Shown: in pieces, positions 5,480 through 14,808 of the stretch
How the letters are laid out: each line of letters begins with the position of its first letter
Numbering within the stretch: the first letter of the stretch is position 1
The notes under the pieces: generated by a model
What the model was told of the DNA's origin: nothing
The model's input: the letters and a program-made list of their open reading frames with translations, nothing else
The model's database searches: none
NCBI GenBank assembly: GCA_003222395.1
Contig: QHWB01000034.1
Span: forward strand, 1 to 64,000
Source of the DNA: Acidobacteriota bacterium
GTDB lineage: Bacteria; Acidobacteriota; Vicinamibacteria; Vicinamibacterales; CAVVIG01
Direction of reading: 5' to 3'
Length of the DNA: 64,000 bases
Made by a program: the position numbers and the translations under genes

Positions 5480-6469
5480 ATGCCCATTATCGATTTCCAC
5501 AACCATTATTACCCGCCGAAGTACATGCAGGCGCTCCAGTCGGGAGCGAGCAGCATCAAGGTGACCGTTGACTCCGAAGGCAATCCCGTTCTGCACTACC
5601 CGGGCGACTACAACGTCGCCGTGCGCGGCCACCGCGATCTCGCGTACCGGCAGGAGGTGCTCGACTCGCACGGCGTCAGCCTGCAGGTGCTGACGCTGAC
5701 GACGCCGGGGACGCACGTCGAGTCGCCGGCGACGGCCGTGAAGCTCGCCTCGCTCGTCAACGACGAGTTCAAGGAAGCGATGGACACGCGCGGGCATCAC
5801 TTCACGGCGCTCGCGACGCTGCCGTTGAACGATCCCGCGGCGGCGGTGAAGGAGCTCGATCGCGCGATCGCTCAGCTCGGCATGCGTGGCGCGATGCTGT
5901 TCAGCAACGTGAACGGCGTCGCGCTGAGCGACCGCCGCTTCTGGCCGATGTACGAGCTCGCGAACGATCGCGGCGCTGTGCTCTACATCCATCCCGAACA
6001 TCCGGTCGGCGTCGAAGCGATGATGGATTACTGGCTGATGCCGCTGGTGGGCTTTCTCTTCGACACGACGCTCGCGGCGGCATCGCTCGTCTTCAGCGGC
6101 GTCGTCGAGCGCTTTCCGCGCATTCGGTGGGCGCTCTGTCATCTCGGCGGCGCCATTCCGTATCTGGCCGAGCGGCTCGATCGCGGCTTCCACGCGTTCA
6201 AGGACTGCCGCGCGCACATCCAGCGTCCGCCGAGCACATATCTGCGCGATTTCTATTACGACACGGTCAATTTCAATCTGGCCGCGCTGCAGCTCGCCGT
6301 CTCGTTCGCGGGACCGGAACATATTCTGGCGGGCAGCGATTATCCGCATCAGATCGGCAGCATCCCGTCGATGCTCGATGCGATCGGCAGGCTGCCGGTG
6401 AGCGATGACGAGCGGGCGGGAATCTACGGTCTCAACGCCGCGCGATTATTGGGATTGACGGTCTCCTGA
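5480..6469 (+). CDS. ACMSD-type amidohydrolase (amidohydrolase_2 family)
   Basis: A 329-residue TIM-barrel metal-dependent hydrolase/decarboxylase. The N-terminal DFHNHYYP holds the HxH metal ligands. Further ligands are His in YIHPEHP near 172, His in CHLGGAIP near 222 and Asp in AGSDYPHQ near 290. Relatives are 2-amino-3-carboxymuconate semialdehyde decarboxylase and benzoate-type decarboxylases, acting without oxygen on acidic aromatic or enol substrates. The substrate is unknown and the neighbours give no pathway. The start follows copy 1 of the dispersed start-site element. Confidence 0.85.
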   Translation: MPIIDFHNHYYPPKYMQALQSGASSIKVTVDSEGNPVLHYPGDYNVAVRGHRDLAYRQEVLDSHGVSLQVLTLTTPGTHVESPATAVKLASLVNDEFKEAMDTRGHHFTALATLPLNDPAAAVKELDRAIAQLGMRGAMLFSNVNGVALSDRRFWPMYELANDRGAVLYIHPEHPVGVEAMMDYWLMPLVGFLFDTTLAAASLVFSGVVERFPRIRWALCHLGGAIPYLAERLDRGFHAFKDCRAHIQRPPSTYLRDFYYDTVNFNLAALQLAVSFAGPEHILAGSDYPHQIGSIPSMLDAIGRLPVSDDERAGIYGLNAARLLGLTVS

Positions 6470-6496
6470 TCGGCGGGATCGGCAGGAGCGGCCTGG

Positions 6497-6586
6497 ATGG
6501 GCAGGAGGGGCTGGATGGGCGGGAGGGGCTGGATGGGCGGGAGGGGCTGGATGGGCAGGAGTTGCTGGATGGGCAGGAAGCGGCTC
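6497..6586 (+). repeat. five 18-bp tandem units each carrying SD and ATG
   Basis: Five copies of an 18-bp unit run ATGGGC-RGGAGG-GGCTGG with small changes (the last copies drift to AGGAGTTGC and AGGAAGCGG). In the first three junctions a GGAGG stands 6-7 nt before the next in-frame ATG, an ideal start-site layout. Read through, they would give MGGRGW peptide repeats before the signal peptide of the cupin gene. Confidence 0.85.
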
Positions 6587-6928: not shown

Positions 6929-8704
6929 CTAACGACGACCAGGGTTTTCCACGGTCAGTTGTCTTACCCACAACCCGCGCGCGGTTTCTTCCTCGTCGCC
7001 GAGCGGCGTCGTGAACACCGTCGCCAGCCGCGCGCTCGACGCAGAGGCAGGCGCTGCAGCGAGGCCTCCGACGCTCCGCAGCCGGCTGGTCGTCTGCGAT
7101 GGAAGCTTCGCGCTCTCGACCCGTCTGCCGAGCACCGGACGGGGAAGGGTCGCGAAGATCTCTTCGAACGCCTGCAGGCGTTCCGGGCTCGCGAAGATGA
7201 GGAAGTGCTCGCGTCCGCCCGCGCTGGTGATCTGCCAGCTCAGGTCCGCGTCGCGCATGCCCGGAATGCGGACGGGCGTTCCGGGCGCGACCGGGTTCTC
7301 GACTGCCTGGCCCTGCAACGGAAACAGGAGAAATGTTTCGCCGTCGTCGTCCTCGTTGACGATGTACACGTACGCGGGCATCGAGACGCGAAGCTTCGCA
7401 AAGAGTTGATCGCCTGGCGCGACGCGATCGCCGGAGTGCAGCCGCGTCTCTGCGGCGCCGCGTTGCCGGTAGAGCGCGGTATCGATCTGGTACGTCGAAG
7501 CGGCGGCAGATGTCGCGCCCGACGGCGCCGCTTCAGTGTTGACCGTCACCGGCGGATTGGTTTTCTGCGATCGGACGTCGACCCAGTATGTCGCTGCGCC
7601 GAGGCCTGCAAGCGCGACGATGGCCGCGGCCGCGGTCCACATTTTCGGCGGCGCCGGCGCAGGCAAGGCGGCCGGGGGACGTCCGAGAAACTGCGCGAGC
7701 GCCGCTTCGAAGGCGCCGATGCTTTGAAAGCGCGCCGCCGGATCGGCATCGATTGCCCGCTCCACGGCGCCGACGAAATCGGCGGGCAGATCGGGTCGCG
7801 CATCGCGCAGGGGCGTCCGTCTCCCGCGGAGATGCGCCTCTTCGACTTCCTGCTGCGTGCGCCCCTCGACCGGATAGACGCTGGTGACGAGGTGGTAGAG
7901 CAGGACGCCGAGGCTGTAGATGTCGGTCCGCGAGGACCGCGGCGCGCCGTGGAACACCTCCGGCGCGAGATACAGCGGCGTGCCGGCGATATCGTGGCCG
8001 GTGCCGACGGCCCGAATGCGAAGATCCTTACCGGTCCCGAAATCCATCAGCACGGTTCGGCCGCCGGCCGCGCGCATCACGTTGCGCGCCTTCACGTCGC
8101 CGTGTACGAGCCCGGCTGCGTGCACCGCAGCGAGCGCCTGGCACAGATCGCCGCCAATCAGCGCGGCTTCGCGCGCGCCGAACGGTCCCTGTTCGCGCAG
8201 CACCGCGGCCAGTGTTCGCCCGTCGATGAACTCCATCCAGATGCCGACGCGTCCGTCGATGACGTCCGCCCCGTACACCGAAACGACGTTGATGTGGCGG
8301 ACGCGCGCGAGCAGGCGCGCTTCTTTCAGCGCGCGGGACAGGTTCACCGTGCGATCCGCGGGCAGCGGAATCAGCTTCAGCGCGACGCTGGTCTGCAGCC
8401 TCGTGTCGCGGGCGCGGTAGACGGAGCCGAAGGATCCCTCGCCGATCGTCTCGAGCGACGTGAAATGACCCCAGCGGCCGAGCGGAGCGGCGTCGCGGTG
8501 CTCGCTGCGCTCGGCGGTCGGCGTGTCAGCCGGCTCGGCAGCGCGATGGAATGCGGCGATCTGTTCGAGCGCGTGCAGTTCGCGGAGCACGCTGCTCGTG
8601 GCGGCGTCGCCCGCCTGCTCTCGAATACCGTCCCAGTTGACGCCGTCGCCATCGGAAATCGCGCCGGCGACGTTCAGCAGTCTGACGTCTTCAGGCTCGC
8701 CCAC
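6929..8704 (-). CDS. transmembrane Ser/Thr protein kinase with DUF4384 sensor domain
   Basis: A 591-residue Hanks-type kinase. An N-terminal region of about 78 residues precedes a kinase domain with P-loop GEGSFGSVY (88-96), K110, catalytic loop HGDVKARN (D203, N208) and DFG at 221-223. The usual HRD is HGD. A membrane helix follows at about 356-374, then an outer domain of DUF4384 type (about 400-530). It probably senses something outside the cytoplasm and phosphorylates cytoplasmic targets. The GTG start overlaps the end of the sigma-factor gene by 14 nt, so the two are translationally coupled. The C11/CHAT genes diverge from this pair. Confidence 0.9.
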   Translation of the reverse strand: MGEPEDVRLLNVAGAISDGDGVNWDGIREQAGDAATSSVLRELHALEQIAAFHRAAEPADTPTAERSEHRDAAPLGRWGHFTSLETIGEGSFGSVYRARDTRLQTSVALKLIPLPADRTVNLSRALKEARLLARVRHINVVSVYGADVIDGRVGIWMEFIDGRTLAAVLREQGPFGAREAALIGGDLCQALAAVHAAGLVHGDVKARNVMRAAGGRTVLMDFGTGKDLRIRAVGTGHDIAGTPLYLAPEVFHGAPRSSRTDIYSLGVLLYHLVTSVYPVEGRTQQEVEEAHLRGRRTPLRDARPDLPADFVGAVERAIDADPAARFQSIGAFEAALAQFLGRPPAALPAPAPPKMWTAAAAIVALAGLGAATYWVDVRSQKTNPPVTVNTEAAPSGATSAAASTYQIDTALYRQRGAAETRLHSGDRVAPGDQLFAKLRVSMPAYVYIVNEDDDGETFLLFPLQGQAVENPVAPGTPVRIPGMRDADLSWQITSAGGREHFLIFASPERLQAFEEIFATLPRPVLGRRVESAKLPSQTTSRLRSVGGLAAAPASASSARLATVFTTPLGDEEETARGLWVRQLTVENPGRR

Positions 8705-9314
8705 GCGACATCTCCTCGGCGAGCCGTACCAGCGCGCGGCTGACGGCCATCTGAGCGGCGGCGACGCTCGGCTTGCCGAGCGCCTCCCTGATCTCCTCGT
8801 ACTTGCAATCGAGCTCGATCCGCATGATCACCGCGAGGCGGTCGCCGTCGCGGAGCCGCTCGAGCGCCGCCTCGTAGCATTCCAGCGTCTCCTGACCGAT
8901 GGCCTCTTCGAGCGGCGACGGCTGCGAAGCCGGCCTCTCGGCATCGAGCGGCTGCGCCGGACCACGGCGCGCCACGCGGCGGATTTCGTCCTTGACGCGA
9001 TTGTTCAACGTGATGCGCAGGTAGCCCTGAAACGCTCCGGGATGACGCGCCTCGAATCGGTCGAGCCGCTGCAGCACCTGGAAGAAGGTGTCCTGCACCA
9101 GATCGACGGTGTCGAGCGCGCCGCGCGCCGATGTCGGCAGCCGGCCATGAGCCCACCGATGGAGGCGGGGCAGATAGCGCGCACACAGTTCTTCCCGGGC
9201 AGCCACGTCCCCTTCGTGGGCACGACGAATCAGCGTGAACGACGACTCGGCTCCCACGCGCACCCCTCCCGGAAGGGCATTCGGCGTGGCGACGGGTAAC
9301 GAAGGCTTGGCCAT
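8691..9314 (-). CDS. ECF-type RNA polymerase sigma factor
   Basis: From ATG 9314 the product has 207 residues. Region 2 is clear (CARYLPRLHRWAHGRLP, then DTVDLVQDTFFQVLQRLDRF). Region 4 contains a helix-turn-helix (LDCKYEEIREALGKPSVAA). The alternative ATG at 9356 adds MIGTLPLTLGPIPA, but that ATG overlaps a TATGAT that looks like a -10 box, so 9314 is more likely. It starts a two-gene operon with a Ser/Thr kinase, an arrangement in which phosphorylation often replaces an anti-sigma factor. It may also drive the divergent protease genes (inference). Confidence 0.88.
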   Translation of the reverse strand: MAKPSLPVATPNALPGGVRVGAESSFTLIRRAHEGDVAAREELCARYLPRLHRWAHGRLPTSARGALDTVDLVQDTFFQVLQRLDRFEARHPGAFQGYLRITLNNRVKDEIRRVARRGPAQPLDAERPASQPSPLEEAIGQETLECYEAALERLRDGDRLAVIMRIELDCKYEEIREALGKPSVAAAQMAVSRALVRLAEEMSRGRA

Positions 9315-9553
9315 CGCGGGAATCGGACCGAGTGTCAGGGGGAGCGTGCCTATCATACGCGTTCTGAGTGATAACGACAGCGTGCGGGGTTTCTAACCGT
9401 GGCCGGCGCGAACTGTTCGGTGAGCCCGCTTTCGTCGTTGATCCCTGTGAACGGTCCGGTCGCCGCGCGAATGCGTGTGCTAGACTCCGCGCTCAACCCG
9501 CACACGTCCATTGGTTGTCCGCGCAGCGATCCGCCGCTGATTGCGAGGGTTTT
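9315..9553. promoter_or_regulatory. divergent control region between sigma/kinase and C11/CHAT genes
   Basis: A non-coding stretch of about 240 nt. On the minus strand TATGAT (9358-9353) could be a -10 for the sigma gene. On the plus strand TGC-TAGACT (TAGACT at 9481-9486) looks like an extended -10 for the C11 gene, giving a leader of about 60 nt. Between them CGAAC-T-GTTCG (9409-9419) is a perfect 5-bp palindrome that could be an operator. I found no convincing -35 for either direction. Confidence 0.4.
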
Positions 9554-11371
9554 ATGTCATCGAAGTGGCTGATCATGTTCTACCTGGGCGGCGACAACAA
9601 CTTGAGCAGCGAAATGATCCGCGCGATTGACGACATCGCGGCGGTTGGCGTGCCCGACGATGTCGCGATCACGATTCAATACGACCCACTGTCGCCGAGT
9701 TCGCCCCCGCTGCGTTTCGAGCTGCTGCCCGGAACGCACCTGGTTTCCAACGAAGAGCGGCGGCACGGACCGATCATCCCACTGCTGAACGTCGAACCTC
9801 GTGCGAAGATCAAAATCATTCCGAAAGGTGAGAATTCCGCGAATCCTGTGGTGCTGAGCCACTTCATCTTTTCCAGCATCAGGAGGTTTCAGCCGAGCGA
9901 GTACCCGAACCGCATGCTGGTGCTCGCTGGACACGGTAGCGGAGCAGCGGGCGACTTCCTCAATGACGATCACGCGAAGAACGGGCAACCCGGGTCGCTG
10001 ACGATTCCGCGATTGCGGGAGGCGCTCGAGAAGGCGAAGACGAGTCTGTACGAACGGACGCTGTACGGCGCTCCGGCGCCGCTGATCAATCGCGGCACGA
10101 AGCTCCTACAGATCCTGGGTATGGACAGCTGTCTAATGAGTATGGCGGAAGTCGCCTTCGAAGTTGAAAGAGAAGTGGAATATCTGGTGGCTTCCGAGGG
10201 CTTCGTTCCTGAGGCGGGTTGGCCATACAAGATGTTTCTTGAGAGTCTCACAAAGACGATCAAGGAGGCGAAGCGCAATGCCAGTGACGAAGCATTGAAG
10301 CCAGAGGCCGTCAGCGCTTGCCTCGTCCGCGATTACCTGAAGTTCTACACGGATTACTTGACGGCCGGTGTGTCGGTCGAAATCGCTGCGTGCGATTTAG
10401 CGCGGCTCGGTCCGCTGCGGAAGGCGGTCGAGGGGCTCGCAAGCGCCTTGGTCGGCAAAGACGGCAATCGTCTGAAGGATGACGAGACGCTTCGCAAGCA
10501 GGTCGTTTACGCGCATTGGCGCGCGCAATCGTTCAAATTTGACCAGCACATTGATTTGTGGGACTTCTGTCACATTCTTGGTAGCGAGCTTGACGAGCAT
10601 GCGAAGCCAGCGCGTGCCCTTGCAGGCGCTCTCTTAACGCCTCTCGCCGAATCGCAGCCCGCGCTACCGAAATCGATCGAGGCAATCGTCCATCACCTCC
10701 ACCGAGCGCGAACCGCTGCGGATGACGTGTGTGGCGCCTGTGCGGAAGTCAAAGAAAGCATCAATGCACTCGTGGGACGAACAAAAACTTGTGCTGGTCG
10801 GCAAGGATATTCAGGCGTCGACTTCCAGTACGCTCAGGGCGTCGCCGTTTACTTCCCTTGGCGGCTGCCGATCGTCCCTGGACCAGAAGACCGGATCCTC
10901 GGGCTCGAGCCGTATGATGGTCTTCAGTTTGCCGTCACGGGCTGGAACCGATTCCTGAGATGCTACCTGCGCGACACAGTGCGGCCTGCACGATCGCTCG
11001 ACAACACAAATCGCCGCGTTGGACTCGCTTTGCCGGAAGCGATCAAGCAAACAATTTCAGCCAGTGCTGGAGCGCCGGAGCTGCGAGATCACCCCGACAC
11101 GTTCCGGTTCAAGAACTTCAATCGGTTCGCCGACTTTGGACGATTTGCAGACTTCGGACGAATTGCCGATTTCGGGCGGTTTGCCGATTTCGGCCGATTT
11201 GCGGACTTCGGCCGGTTTGCGGACTTCGGCCGATTCGCGGATTTCGGAAGGTTCCTAATCCAGAAAGTGGGCAACACGTTGCCGTGGAGCACCACGAACC
11301 CACCGCAGGAGGTGAAGTTGTTCGACGTCCCTTCGCAAGAGGACGAACGGCGACCGGTGGCGAACCGCTGA
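9554..11371 (+). CDS. C11 clostripain-family peptidase with FADFGR repeat tail
   Basis: A 605-residue clan CD cysteine peptidase. The clostripain core is plain: KWLIMFYLGGDNNLSSEM at the start, catalytic His127 in LAGHGSG, catalytic Cys193 in GMDSCLMSMAEV, then EGFVPEAGWPY. These enzymes cut after Arg or Lys. There is no signal peptide, so it is probably cytoplasmic, unlike many secreted C11 enzymes. Near the C-terminus (525-566) are seven FADFGR hexapeptides followed by FLIQKVG. ATG 9554 is chosen because the family motif starts there and a purine-rich GCGAGG lies 5 nt upstream. The TPR-CHAT gene overlaps its 3' end. Base use is somewhat less GC-rich than in the neighbours. Confidence 0.88.
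   Translation: MSSKWLIMFYLGGDNNLSSEMIRAIDDIAAVGVPDDVAITIQYDPLSPSSPPLRFELLPGTHLVSNEERRHGPIIPLLNVEPRAKIKIIPKGENSANPVVLSHFIFSSIRRFQPSEYPNRMLVLAGHGSGAAGDFLNDDHAKNGQPGSLTIPRLREALEKAKTSLYERTLYGAPAPLINRGTKLLQILGMDSCLMSMAEVAFEVEREVEYLVASEGFVPEAGWPYKMFLESLTKTIKEAKRNASDEALKPEAVSACLVRDYLKFYTDYLTAGVSVEIAACDLARLGPLRKAVEGLASALVGKDGNRLKDDETLRKQVVYAHWRAQSFKFDQHIDLWDFCHILGSELDEHAKPARALAGALLTPLAESQPALPKSIEAIVHHLHRARTAADDVCGACAEVKESINALVGRTKTCAGRQGYSGVDFQYAQGVAVYFPWRLPIVPGPEDRILGLEPYDGLQFAVTGWNRFLRCYLRDTVRPARSLDNTNRRVGLALPEAIKQTISASAGAPELRDHPDTFRFKNFNRFADFGRFADFGRIADFGRFADFGRFADFGRFADFGRFADFGRFLIQKVGNTLPWSTTNPPQEVKLFDVPSQEDERRPVANR
11126..11251 (+). repeat. seven in-frame 18-bp repeats encoding FADFGR
   Basis: Seven uninterrupted 18-bp units encode FADFGR (one copy IADFGR). 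Third bases differ between copies (GCC, GCA, GCG; GAC, GAT; CGA, CGG) while the amino acids stay fixed. Selection has therefore kept the peptide rather than a recent DNA duplication making it. The period of 6 could form a beta-hairpin stack or a binding array, with alternating Phe, Asp and Arg. Confidence 0.95.
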
Positions 11372-14300
11372 ATCGGCGATTCCGCTATCGACGCATCAGC
11401 CGATGGTCGTTGGCCCTTCTGCTGCTTGTCTGTCCAGTTGGCGCGCCGACATCGCAGGCGCGCGGAGGGCAATGGCAAATCGAGTCAGTCCGCGAGGCGC
11501 TCGCCCGCGGGGCGTACGCCGAAGCCGAGCGTTACGCAACGGAACTTACTGCGAGCACTGAACAGCAGTACGGACCCGATTCGCTGGAGCTCGCACGCGC
11601 CCGTGACTTGCTGATTGAGGCACTGATCAAGAACGGTCGCGGCAACCTTCCAGCGACCCTTGAACTTGCAGAAGCCGCAGTACAACTCAAAGAGCGTTTG
11701 GTCGGACAGAACGACCTCGATACCGCTGTCTCGCTGCTCAACGTCGGTGCCGTCCGTGCTGAACGAGGCGAGTTCACGACTGCCGTCCCGATACATGAAC
11801 GTGCCCTGAGGATCCGTCAAGCACGGCTGCCGGCGACGGATCCGGCGATCGCCGAGAGCCTCGAGCTCGAAGCAGCCGCCCTCATTCGAAGCGAACGGTT
11901 CGACGAAGCCCGCCGCGCCTTGATGCAGTCACAGGCTATTCGCGAACCACGATCGGATGTTGACCCGATCGGACTGGCGCGAACGTTGGAACTGCTCGGG
12001 TGGCTGGAGCGATACTCTGGTAACTACACGGCCGCGGTGCCGCTGGTCCAGCGTGCGCTCGCGATTCGGCAGCTGCGCAATCCAGAACATCCTGACATCA
12101 CGACGACCTTCGAGCTGCGGGGAGATCTCATGTGGCTGCGAGGGGATCTTCACGGAGCGCGCACCGCGTGGGACGACGCCCTGGTATTCGTGATACGAAC
12201 GCTCGGACCGGAGCACCCAATCGCAGGGGGACTGGAACGTAAGGTCGCTATGGCGGCGTACGCGTTCGGCGACCAACGCGAGGCCCGCCGCGCGCGCGAG
12301 CACGCGCTGCAGGTCGCGGAGCGTGCCCTGGCGCCGTGCCACCCCGAGGTTCCCAAGCTGCTCAACGATCTCGCAGTCTCGTTCGAAGACGACGGCGAGT
12401 ACCCCGCGGCACACCAGATGTTTCAGCGCGCCGAGACGACGTATGCGAAATGCCTTGGAAGCGGTCATTCATTGGTTGCCGCGGTCGTGAACAACGAGGC
12501 TGAACTCGCCGAATCAATGGGTGACTTCCGGGAAGCCGAGCGCCTGCACGCGCGTGCGGTGACGATGTGGTCTGCTGCGCTCGGTCCCAACCATCCTTTT
12601 GTGGCGAACGGACTCGATGCAATCGCCGGCAGCGTCGCACTCCGGGGGCAGCGTGCGCGCGCACGCGCTCTTTACCGAAGAGCCCTCGATATACGACAGC
12701 GGGCTCAGGGGTCGGATCATCCCGACGTCGCGTGGACATTGGGCAATCTCGCCCGAACGCAAATCGACTCGGGCCTTCTTTCAGCGGCACTTGCGAATCT
12801 CGAGCGGGCGATCGGTATTTATCGTCGCGCGGGAGCATCGGACCAGCCCGATCATCTGGCCCGCCTCCTCGAGTTACGAGCGGAAATCGAAGCGCGCTTG
12901 GGAGATTACAACGCGGCGCGATCCACTCTCGCAGAGACGCTCGCAATCCGTGAGCGCACGTTTGGCAAGACGCATCCGCTCGCAGCTCAGACTCGCGTCA
13001 TCCTCGCATCGAGAGACTTTGCTGTGGGCGACGGCGCCTTGGCCTTCGAATCGGCGCTCCAAGGAGAGCGAGACGGGCGGGATCACTTTCGATACACGAT
13101 CCGATACCTGCCCGAACGCCAGGCCATGCTGTACTCGAACAAACATCCGCGCGGACTCGATCTGGCACTATCGATTCTGGCCGCTGGCCAAGTTCGCGAT
13201 TCGTCGCGCCTGTTCGACGCCGTCATTCAATCGCGCGGCGTTATTTTGGACGAACTCGCCGCGCGCGCTCAATTCTCGACCGGCGCGGCGGCGGGCGCGG
13301 CACCGTTGGCGGCACTACTGACCGTCGCCCGCGAACGCTTTGCAAACCTTGTGCTGCGCAGCCTTCAGGCCGACGAATCGGTACCTCGGGCGTTGCTCGA
13401 CGAAGTCCGGCAACAGAAAGAAGATGCCGAACGGACGATGGCCGAACGCAGCGCGGCAGCGCGTACGGATCTGGCTCGCGCGCGCGCGGGTCTCGACGAT
13501 GTCCGCCAGGCTCTGCCGTCGCAATCGGTGCTCGTGTCGTTCACGCGGTACGACCGTTCGATCGTGGCTCGAGCACCAACGCACACGAGGCTCCAAACGA
13601 TTCCGTCGTACATCGCCTTCGTGATCCGATCCGACGTGACTGATATCGTCGCGGTGCCGCTCGGGGCTGCAAGCGCGATCGAACGGGCTGTGGCTGCGTG
13701 GCGTGACCAGACTGCCGGCGGATCGCTTGCGGAGGCTGCCGACGCGCGGCAGGCCGAAGCAGCGTACCGTAACGCCGGCGCGGCACTTCGACGCCGGATC
13801 TGGGATCCAATCGCAATCCATCTTGGCGATGCCACGCACGTGTTCATCGTGCCAGACGGCGGGCTCAACCTCGTGAGCTTCGCGGCGTTGCCGACCGGAG
13901 CGCGCGGTTACCTCGCCGAATCCCCGCGAACGGTTCATTACCTGTCGACCGAACGGGACGTGTTGCCGGGCGGCCCGCGAGCGGCGACCGGCGGACTGTT
14001 GGCGGTCGGCGGTGCAGCCTTCGACACGAAGCAACGGACCGGGAATGTGCCGACCTCACGAACGAGTGGCGTTCGGCGATCGGGTTGCGGTTCGCTTGCC
14101 TCAGTTCGTTTCGAAGACCTGCCAGGCTCGAGAGATGAAGTGGCCGACATCGCACGCGTCTGGTCGTCGAACGCTGGCGATAGCCTGACAGTCCTGACCG
14201 GATCGCGCGCGACTGAAACAGCAGTGAAGCAGGCGATCAGCGGACGGCAGATCGTTCACCTCGCAACGCACGGTTTCTTTCTCGGATCCGGATGCGAGAG

Positions 14301-14808
14301 CGCGCCAGCCGGCACGCGCGCAGTCGGCGGATTGGCATCGTCGAAACGCTCTTCCTCGAGTGCCCAGTTGGAGAACCCGCTCCTGCTGTCGGGGATAGCG
14401 CTCTCCGGTGCCAACAATCATGTCGCCGCGACAACTGGAGAGGACGATGGGATTCTCACCGCGGAGGAAGTCGCATCGTTGAATCTGCAGTCGACTGATT
14501 GGGCTGTACTTTCGGCGTGCGACACCGGCGTCGGCGAAGTGAAAGTCGGCGAAGGTGTGTTTGGTCTTCGTCGGGCGTTCCAGATCGCGGGTGCCCGGAC
14601 CGTTATCATGAGCCTGTGGTCCGTCGACGATCAGGCTGCGCGGCAATGGATGCACGCGTTATATCGCGATCGTCTCGAGCAACGCATGACCACCGCCGAC
14701 GCCGTGCACGACGCGACGCTTAGCGTGCTACGCGCGCGGCGCGCGAAAGGACTGAGTACGCATCCGTTCTACTGGGGCGGATTCGTGGGAGCCGGCGACT
14801 GGCGATGA
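11284..14808 (+). CDS. secreted or membrane-anchored TPR-CHAT caspase-like protein
   Basis: About 1174 residues. A basic stretch (RRFRYRRISRW) and hydrophobic segment (SLALLLLVCPVGAP) form a signal peptide or anchor. Next come about ten tetratricopeptide repeats in kinesin-light-chain style (EHPDI, PDVAWTLGNLA), then a C-terminal CHAT protease domain with catalytic His996 in HLATHGFF and Cys1079 in SACDTGVGEV. The family cuts proteins when the TPR part is triggered, or serves as a scaffold. No ATG start is available: GTG 11284 (overlapping the C11 gene by 88 nt), CTG 11368 at the upstream stop (CTGA) and TTG 11413 are the options. I prefer 11284. Co-transcription with the C11 peptidase is very likely. 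Confidence 0.85.
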   Translation: MEHHEPTAGGEVVRRPFARGRTATGGEPLNRRFRYRRISRWSLALLLLVCPVGAPTSQARGGQWQIESVREALARGAYAEAERYATELTASTEQQYGPDSLELARARDLLIEALIKNGRGNLPATLELAEAAVQLKERLVGQNDLDTAVSLLNVGAVRAERGEFTTAVPIHERALRIRQARLPATDPAIAESLELEAAALIRSERFDEARRALMQSQAIREPRSDVDPIGLARTLELLGWLERYSGNYTAAVPLVQRALAIRQLRNPEHPDITTTFELRGDLMWLRGDLHGARTAWDDALVFVIRTLGPEHPIAGGLERKVAMAAYAFGDQREARRAREHALQVAERALAPCHPEVPKLLNDLAVSFEDDGEYPAAHQMFQRAETTYAKCLGSGHSLVAAVVNNEAELAESMGDFREAERLHARAVTMWSAALGPNHPFVANGLDAIAGSVALRGQRARARALYRRALDIRQRAQGSDHPDVAWTLGNLARTQIDSGLLSAALANLERAIGIYRRAGASDQPDHLARLLELRAEIEARLGDYNAARSTLAETLAIRERTFGKTHPLAAQTRVILASRDFAVGDGALAFESALQGERDGRDHFRYTIRYLPERQAMLYSNKHPRGLDLALSILAAGQVRDSSRLFDAVIQSRGVILDELAARAQFSTGAAAGAAPLAALLTVARERFANLVLRSLQADESVPRALLDEVRQQKEDAERTMAERSAAARTDLARARAGLDDVRQALPSQSVLVSFTRYDRSIVARAPTHTRLQTIPSYIAFVIRSDVTDIVAVPLGAASAIERAVAAWRDQTAGGSLAEAADARQAEAAYRNAGAALRRRIWDPIAIHLGDATHVFIVPDGGLNLVSFAALPTGARGYLAESPRTVHYLSTERDVLPGGPRAATGGLLAVGGAAFDTKQRTGNVPTSRTSGVRRSGCGSLASVRFEDLPGSRDEVADIARVWSSNAGDSLTVLTGSRATETAVKQAISGRQIVHLATHGFFLGSGCESAPAGTRAVGGLASSKRSSSSAQLENPLLLSGIALSGANNHVAATTGEDDGILTAEEVASLNLQSTDWAVLSACDTGVGEVKVGEGVFGLRRAFQIAGARTVIMSLWSVDDQAARQWMHALYRDRLEQRMTTADAVHDATLSVLRARRAKGLSTHPFYWGGFVGAGDWR

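Follow-up and report, generated by a model that had tools for sequence, protein, structure and literature searches.

Introduction

Two described circuits tie a protease with tetratricopeptide repeats (TPRs) and a CHAT domain to a sigma factor. In Myxococcus xanthus, DdvS is an extracytoplasmic function (ECF) sigma factor, and DdvA (PDB 8rot, 8rw5) joins a membrane anti-sigma region to an outer TPR superhelix and a CHAT domain; DdvS controls an antiphage island with CRISPR-Cas and the cyclic oligonucleotide-based antiphage signalling system CBASS (PMC12288465). In Craspase, the type III-E CRISPR system made up of Cas7-11, Csx29, Csx30 and CASP-sigma, the TPR-CHAT protease Csx29 cuts Csx30, the inhibitor of CASP-sigma (PMC10028731). 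The clostripain (C11) family of cysteine peptidases is a third point of reference, as PmC11 and clostripain prefer a basic P1 residue and process themselves at Lys/Arg, a preference ascribed to the S1 residue Asp177 in PmC11 and Asp229 in clostripain (PMC4850288). Here we describe a locus encoding a C11 peptidase and a TPR-CHAT peptidase side by side, found in a 64,000-nucleotide stretch of an Acidobacteriota genome (contig QHWB01000034.1; hereafter the window). We propose, with a probability of about 0.45, that this C11-CHAT pair forms the protease half of an Acidobacteriota sigma-factor signalling module.

The proposed module resembles DdvS-DdvA in combining an ECF sigma factor, a membrane anti-sigma-like protein, an outer TPR superhelix and CHAT, and resembles Craspase in that a TPR-CHAT protease accompanies an ECF sigma factor and its putative inhibitor. 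Given the sigma linkage and the occurrence elsewhere of an anti-sigma region fused to TPR-CHAT, as in DdvA, these two circuits are its best-known relatives. A search of the phylum with the anti-sigma-like family found eight such fusions (L181-L188), in which an anti-sigma-like N-terminal part and a transmembrane segment (TM) are joined straight to TPR-CHAT in the domain order of DdvA, each adjoining the same sigma gene. DdvA, which retains the CHAT His and Cys motifs, was the best solved-structure match for the fused CHATs, two CHAT profiles matching 8rot_B at 3.2e-6 and 3.8e-5; the sequence of the window CHAT domain alone found no match among solved structures, so that profiles were needed. 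A structure model of the window TPR-CHAT, itself of low confidence, also finds DdvA. Unlike DdvA, the TPR-CHAT of the module is a separate polypeptide, the anti-sigma-like protein has an immunoglobulin (Ig)-like outer domain, and a C11 peptidase with a Lys/Arg array is added; the window CHAT starts with a signal sequence and lacks an anti-sigma domain, and sequence similarity is remote. Matches of the module to type III-E families were weak (Csx29, 7.9e-5; type III-E sigma, 1.8e-4). Unlike in Craspase, the CHAT protein is predicted to be exported rather than cytoplasmic and a C11 peptidase is present in addition, and neither Cas7-11 nor Csx30 was found among recurring neighbour families or open reading frames (ORFs) beside the pair, CRISPR arrays not having been searched separately. 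With clostripain and PmC11 the window-type C11 shares the fold family, the His/Cys dyad and the S1 Asp, but it differs from them in lacking a signal peptide, in its long tail with an array and in its linkage to a sigma module.

Results

The C11 and TPR-CHAT genes form a conserved operon

The two protease genes of the window carry the following features:

9554..11371, plus strand: C11 (clostripain-family) cysteine peptidase, 605 aa, without signal peptide (PF03415, 2e-20; alignment of 23 homologues)
9932..9934, plus strand: catalytic His127 of C11, invariant in 23 aligned C11s
10124..10126, plus strand: Asp191 of C11, equivalent of the S1-pocket Asp (PmC11 Asp177, clostripain Asp229) by alignment to 3uws
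10130..10132, plus strand: catalytic Cys193 of C11, invariant in 23 aligned C11s
11126..11251, plus strand: peptide array in the C11 tail, 7 x 18 bp, FADFGR units, an in-frame tandem repeat
11294..11305, plus strand: post-array TNPP in C11, counterpart of the tail motif [KR]NPP / KN[FIV]xxxW
11368..14808, plus strand: TPR-CHAT peptidase, predicted to be exported (PF12770, 1.5e-63; kinesin-light-chain-like TPRs; hydropathy of 24 homologues)
14269..14271, plus strand: catalytic His954 of CHAT (counted from 11410), invariant in 24 aligned CHATs
14518..14520, plus strand: catalytic Cys1037 of CHAT (counted from 11410), invariant in 24 aligned CHATs

The window C11 is a member of its family by its PF03415 domain, its His/Cys dyad and its S1 Asp, and its neighbour is a TPR-CHAT peptidase by its CHAT domain with His and Cys and its N-terminal TPRs. 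An earlier note on this DNA had picked out both catalytic dyads, and their conservation among homologues bears it out; its His996/Cys1079 is the CHAT dyad counted from GTG 11284. That codon is one of three candidate starts of the TPR-CHAT gene, the others being CTG 11368, which overlaps the C11 stop (CTGA), and TTG 11410, and the N-terminus of the protein is signal-like (RRFRYRRISRWSLALLLLVCPVGAPTSQA). The same note had the two peptidase genes overlapping in one operon; they are indeed a conserved adjacent pair, but their overlap is at most a short translational one.

C11 relatives came from 396 Acidobacteriota genomes and a search across 84,980 species. The sample consists mostly of metagenome assemblies with genes called by a home-made caller, and the hidden Markov models (HMMs) were partly built from the same loci that they then annotate. 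Within the phylum the C11 gene is sporadic: at E 1e-20 it was found in 32 of the 396 genomes. Nonetheless, C11-CHAT is a conserved operon: a TPR-CHAT gene lies directly downstream on the same strand, often overlapping, in 25 of the 37 long-tailed C11 loci of Acidobacteriota, and the arrangement is also found in loci fetched after the HMM training set had been fixed (L076, L078, L079, L081, L084 and L086). A sigma gene lies within 6 kb of the long-tailed C11 in 26 of the 37 loci, while the short-tailed C11s, mostly of other phyla, showed no sigma linkage of this kind as judged by the same two HMMs only.

In a second class of loci the long-tailed C11 has no adjoining CHAT. Several of these loci have a Ser/Thr kinase with one TM in its place (L049, L052, L083, L085, L088, L094 and L095), which carries C-terminal TPRs in L049, and an ECF sigma factor accompanies the kinase in four (L049, L088, L094 and L095). 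A TPR protein may be common to both classes, though TPRs are frequent generally. Another locus (L068:4033-12699) encodes two tandem C11 proteins of ~1,400 aa each with C-terminal C11 domains. The genome of the window has two more CHAT genes (G000:C118:347094-347963 and G000:C115:58379-59119; L070 and L071), which are not paired with C11.

The usual partners are a sigma factor and an anti-sigma-like membrane protein

Two more gene families recur beside C11-CHAT. One encodes a divergent ECF-like sigma factor (TIGR02937), the other a membrane protein of 250-370 aa with a single TM, which carries a helical domain at its N-terminus and an Ig-like one on the outside. Where a sigma gene lies near a long-tailed C11, a gene of this second family usually accompanies it. 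We regard the latter as anti-sigma-like because of its weak family matches (NF052375, 1.8e-4; zf-HC2 in some), its topology and its linkage. An AlphaFold model of it (mean pLDDT, the predicted local distance difference test score, 85) shows helices, the TM and an outer beta sandwich; a fold search with it matched the outer Ig-like domain and gave no anti-sigma fold match. Genes for sigma, anti-sigma-like protein and CHAT also occur together without C11 (L189, L192, L197, L198 and L200). As the neighbours of some loci occur fused in L181-L188, there is good evidence that the anti-sigma-like protein and TPR-CHAT work together. The fused genes are followed by a conserved gene of 240-290 aa with no Pfam family and no array (L181-L188, e.g. 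L181:2372-3250, minus strand).

Topology was judged by hydropathy rather than by a signal-peptide predictor. The 24 CHAT homologues start with a signal or anchor, followed in many by a second TM near the C-terminus, whereas the C11 proteins have neither export signal nor TM, two isolated internal exceptions in the hydropathy scan apart. These signals place CHAT most likely outside the inner membrane and C11 inside, in keeping with the two-compartment arrangement suggested in the earlier note. In its usual form the proposed module has four genes, encoding an ECF-like sigma factor, a single-pass anti-sigma-like protein, an outer, membrane-anchored TPR-CHAT and a cytoplasmic C11. The natural fusions suggest that TPR-CHAT controls the anti-sigma factor, and we see an even chance that the peptidase would act on or through this membrane protein and so release the sigma factor.

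The C11 tail carries an array of peptide units with one basic residue each

The FADFGR tail, raised before only as a possible partner of the TPR domain, proved the most informative part of the locus. It is a true 18-bp tandem repeat (two FADFGR units, one IADFGR and four more FADFGR) and one of 28 arrays among the 37 long-tailed C11s. Across these arrays the unit is 5-10 residues long and differs in nearly every genome; even C11s that lie close together in the tree have different units, such as DNPHWNK, NNPPWSK, SNPSASR and DGLPFTK in one clade. All 28 units contain Lys/Arg, 27 of them exactly once. Of 182 copies, 181 keep Lys/Arg in the basic column, and inside six arrays Lys and Arg are exchanged for each other. 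When the units were merged into 22 families, exactly one basic residue was found in 21, compared with 8.5 expected from tail composition (exact tail 2.8e-8, on the rough assumption that unit families are independent). Pro is never first in the unit and never follows the basic residue, whereas it makes up 12% of the other positions. Unrelated arrays amounted to a handful among 1,293 called genes, a small control. A motif after the array ([KR]NPP or KN[FIV]xxxW) was matched in 30 of the 37 tails in a motif scan, and no arrays were found in the short-tailed C11s of other phyla.

Between copies, the mean proportion of differing synonymous sites (pS) across arrays is 0.58, which is near saturation, and that of replacement sites (pN) 0.041, giving a pN/pS of 0.07; in the window array pS is 0.76 and pN 0.021. 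The array copies are under strong purifying selection. With synonymous sites near saturation and replacements rare, the copies are old and are held identical by selection on the peptide.

The basic residue corresponds to the specificity known for the C11 family. Asp191 of the window C11 aligns with Asp177 of PmC11, and the S1 Asp is retained in 35 of the 37 long-tailed C11s, with His in its place in L056 and L075. With the family known to cut at Lys/Arg and the S1 Asp conserved, the simplest interpretation places a C11 cleavage site at the end of each array unit. CHAT is an unlikely cutter of the array because the two proteins lie in opposite compartments. We also considered and set aside a precursor of radical-SAM cyclophanes, with their three-residue aromatic-x-basic motif; nine units would fit, many do not, and no third family recurs nearby as a candidate maturase.

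In L191 (7440-9188), four to five copies of an array of NVDLGFKKP lie inside the catalytic region of the C11 rather than in its tail. In L055 (1829-5388), the array-bearing C11 (LAGTQDSK) adjoins type I restriction-modification genes (HsdS-like, N6 methylase). Matches to the FADFGR tail in other genomes (L034-L042) turned out to be unrelated low-complexity repeats.

The pair in the window lies beside a resident ECF-kinase module

Opposite the protease genes, the window carries two genes that overlap by 14 nt:

6929..8704, minus strand: membrane Ser/Thr kinase (STK; PF00069, 2.7e-40; PF14326, 1.3e-13; outer DUF4384 domain; one TM)
8691..9356, minus strand: ECF sigma factor (PF04542, 2e-11; TIGR02937 above cut-off)

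All four genes are real, and ORFs and domains confirm them as previously described, with ECF sigma and STK on the minus strand and C11 and TPR-CHAT on the plus strand. A promoter scan of the region between the ECF and C11 genes was empty. Just before the kinase gene, an 18-bp repeat at 6468-6578 forms the GWMGGR-like N-terminus of a small cupin-like ORF; the repeat is possibly non-coding.

The earlier note had suggested that a protease could cleave a regulator of this sigma factor and had named conservation of the four-family neighbourhood as a check. A tie of the pair to sigma signalling does exist in other genomes, and C11 and CHAT co-occur (25 of 37), but coupling to this particular ECF-kinase pair is unsupported as stated, since ECF-STK pairs occur without C11-CHAT and the codon composition is foreign-looking in the C11-CHAT pair only. 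The window ECF and STK genes match Acidobacteriota ECF-STK pairs, which occur without C11-CHAT; such close pairs were found across the window's order, with homologous pairs in relatives. ECF-STK pairs also occur in Planctomycetes. The z-scores of G+C content at third codon positions (GC3) are -3.0 for C11 and -3.1 for CHAT, the lowest among the longer window genes, and -0.8 for ECF and STK. In view of these values, of the missing usual sigma and anti-sigma genes and of the ECF-STK pairs without C11-CHAT, the C11-CHAT pair looks horizontally acquired beside a resident ECF-kinase module, which leaves its coupling to the latter uncertain.

That the C11-CHAT pair is a recent arrival which only by chance lies beside resident genes, the four not being one system here, we hold to be about as likely as not. 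The low GC3, the lack of C11 from the other sampled genomes of the window's own family and the frequency of ECF-STK pairs without C11 in the order all speak for a recent arrival. Against it, a sigma factor adjoins most C11-CHAT modules, and ECF and STK genes flank a C11 with an array or a long tail at four further loci (L049, L088, L094 and L095). This recurrence beside C11s without CHAT makes coupling possible, and tentatively, with some doubt, the adjoining ECF and kinase genes may replace the sigma and anti-sigma factors that are usual elsewhere.

Discussion

The conservation of the C11-CHAT pair, its sigma linkage and the fusions argue for a sigma-factor signalling module with a Lys/Arg array as its added element. 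Several observations weigh against this proposal. Eleven or 12 of the 37 long-tailed C11s have no adjoining CHAT, and roughly seven long tails lack a clear array (L044, L045, L074, L075, L078, L080 and L088). The units SRYAR and TTKYGR have two basic residues, and of the two C11s with His at the S1 Asp, L056 yet keeps a Lys array. Beside the window pair the usual sigma and anti-sigma genes are absent, with only weak matches elsewhere in the genome, and the model of the window TPR-CHAT has a pLDDT of 62. Finally, C11 and CHAT lie on opposite sides of the membrane, and no exporter that could carry peptides from the cytoplasm to the outer TPR domain is conserved near C11-CHAT loci.

The relatives of the module raise the question of whether the locus is an anti-phage defence or cell-death system. 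DdvS-DdvA, the closest of its relatives to have been studied, governs a defence island with CBASS and CRISPR (PMC12288465), Csx29 is the TPR-CHAT protease of type III-E CRISPR (PMC10028731), and the array-bearing C11 of L055 adjoins type I restriction genes. However, the neighbourhoods contain no recurrent gene for a toxin, nuclease or pore, and PADLOC gave no match for C11, CHAT or sigma. We consider a defence role unlikely, and a plain assignment to defence was set aside, as PADLOC matched the generic kinase domain only.

How the array would work in a sigma-factor module can be outlined at present from sequence. Probably, C11 would cut after the Lys/Arg of each unit, in its own array or in those of other C11 molecules, and so release several copies of one short peptide. 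That the partner TPR protein would read these peptides, or the removal of the tail, as its message is speculative and rather unlikely. Multi-copy precursors such as yeast alpha-factor and the neuropeptide precursors likewise hold several identical short peptides between basic cleavage sites. Unlike in these precursors, one polypeptide would hold both the array and its presumed cutter, and a single Lys/Arg would form the site. As a whole, a peptide-signalling system in which precursor and cutting protease form one polypeptide, and species-specific peptides ending in Lys/Arg are released on demand and read by a TPR protein, either TPR-CHAT or a TPR kinase, with control over an ECF sigma factor, remains a doubtful proposition. 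A literature search of incomplete coverage found no description of a peptide array in a protease tail cut by the protease itself.

The array may instead be a built-in decoy or timer, its Lys/Arg sites occupying the C11 active site until they are spent or until a partner pulls the tail off, with no peptide signal involved. In C11 enzymes an internal segment blocks activity until the enzyme cleaves itself at Lys/Arg (PMC4850288), and a pseudo-substrate would be expected to keep Lys/Arg while the rest of the sequence is free to change between species, as is found; nor would transport across the membrane be required. A decoy has no need of identical copies, however, and identity is kept at the protein level while synonymous sites are near saturation (pN/pS 0.07), so that we hold this explanation to be unlikely.

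A tail that is never cut, and that serves as a spaced-charge or multivalent ligand of a TPR domain, the membrane or another partner, would account for the regular spacing, for several units of aromatic, small and basic residues and for the conserved motif after the array, and TPRs of the kinesin-light-chain type bind short unstructured peptides. Yet units range from 5 to 10 residues, Lys and Arg interchange, everything else in the unit is replaced from one close relative to the next, and the enzyme that bears the tail comes from a family specific for just these basic residues; we regard a binding tail as quite unlikely. Neutral tandem duplication in a disordered tail, suggested by the perfect period and by the chance origin of similar low-complexity GR repeats elsewhere, is highly improbable in the face of a pN/pS of 0.07, of 28 arrays in 37 long-tailed C11s compared with a handful in some 1,250 other called genes, and of the one Lys/Arg per unit.

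If the signalling module with its self-cut array is right, it brings together two subjects that are little understood. The CHAT proteases tied to anti-sigma factors, DdvA and Craspase, would gain a chromosomal relative in Acidobacteriota that has a second protease, and the activation of such sigma factors would become testable. The C11 tail would then amount to a rapidly changing peptide code with its own enzyme as the cutter. Each array-bearing C11 would yield its own penta- to decapeptide, and synthetic peptides of these sequences would make the code directly testable.

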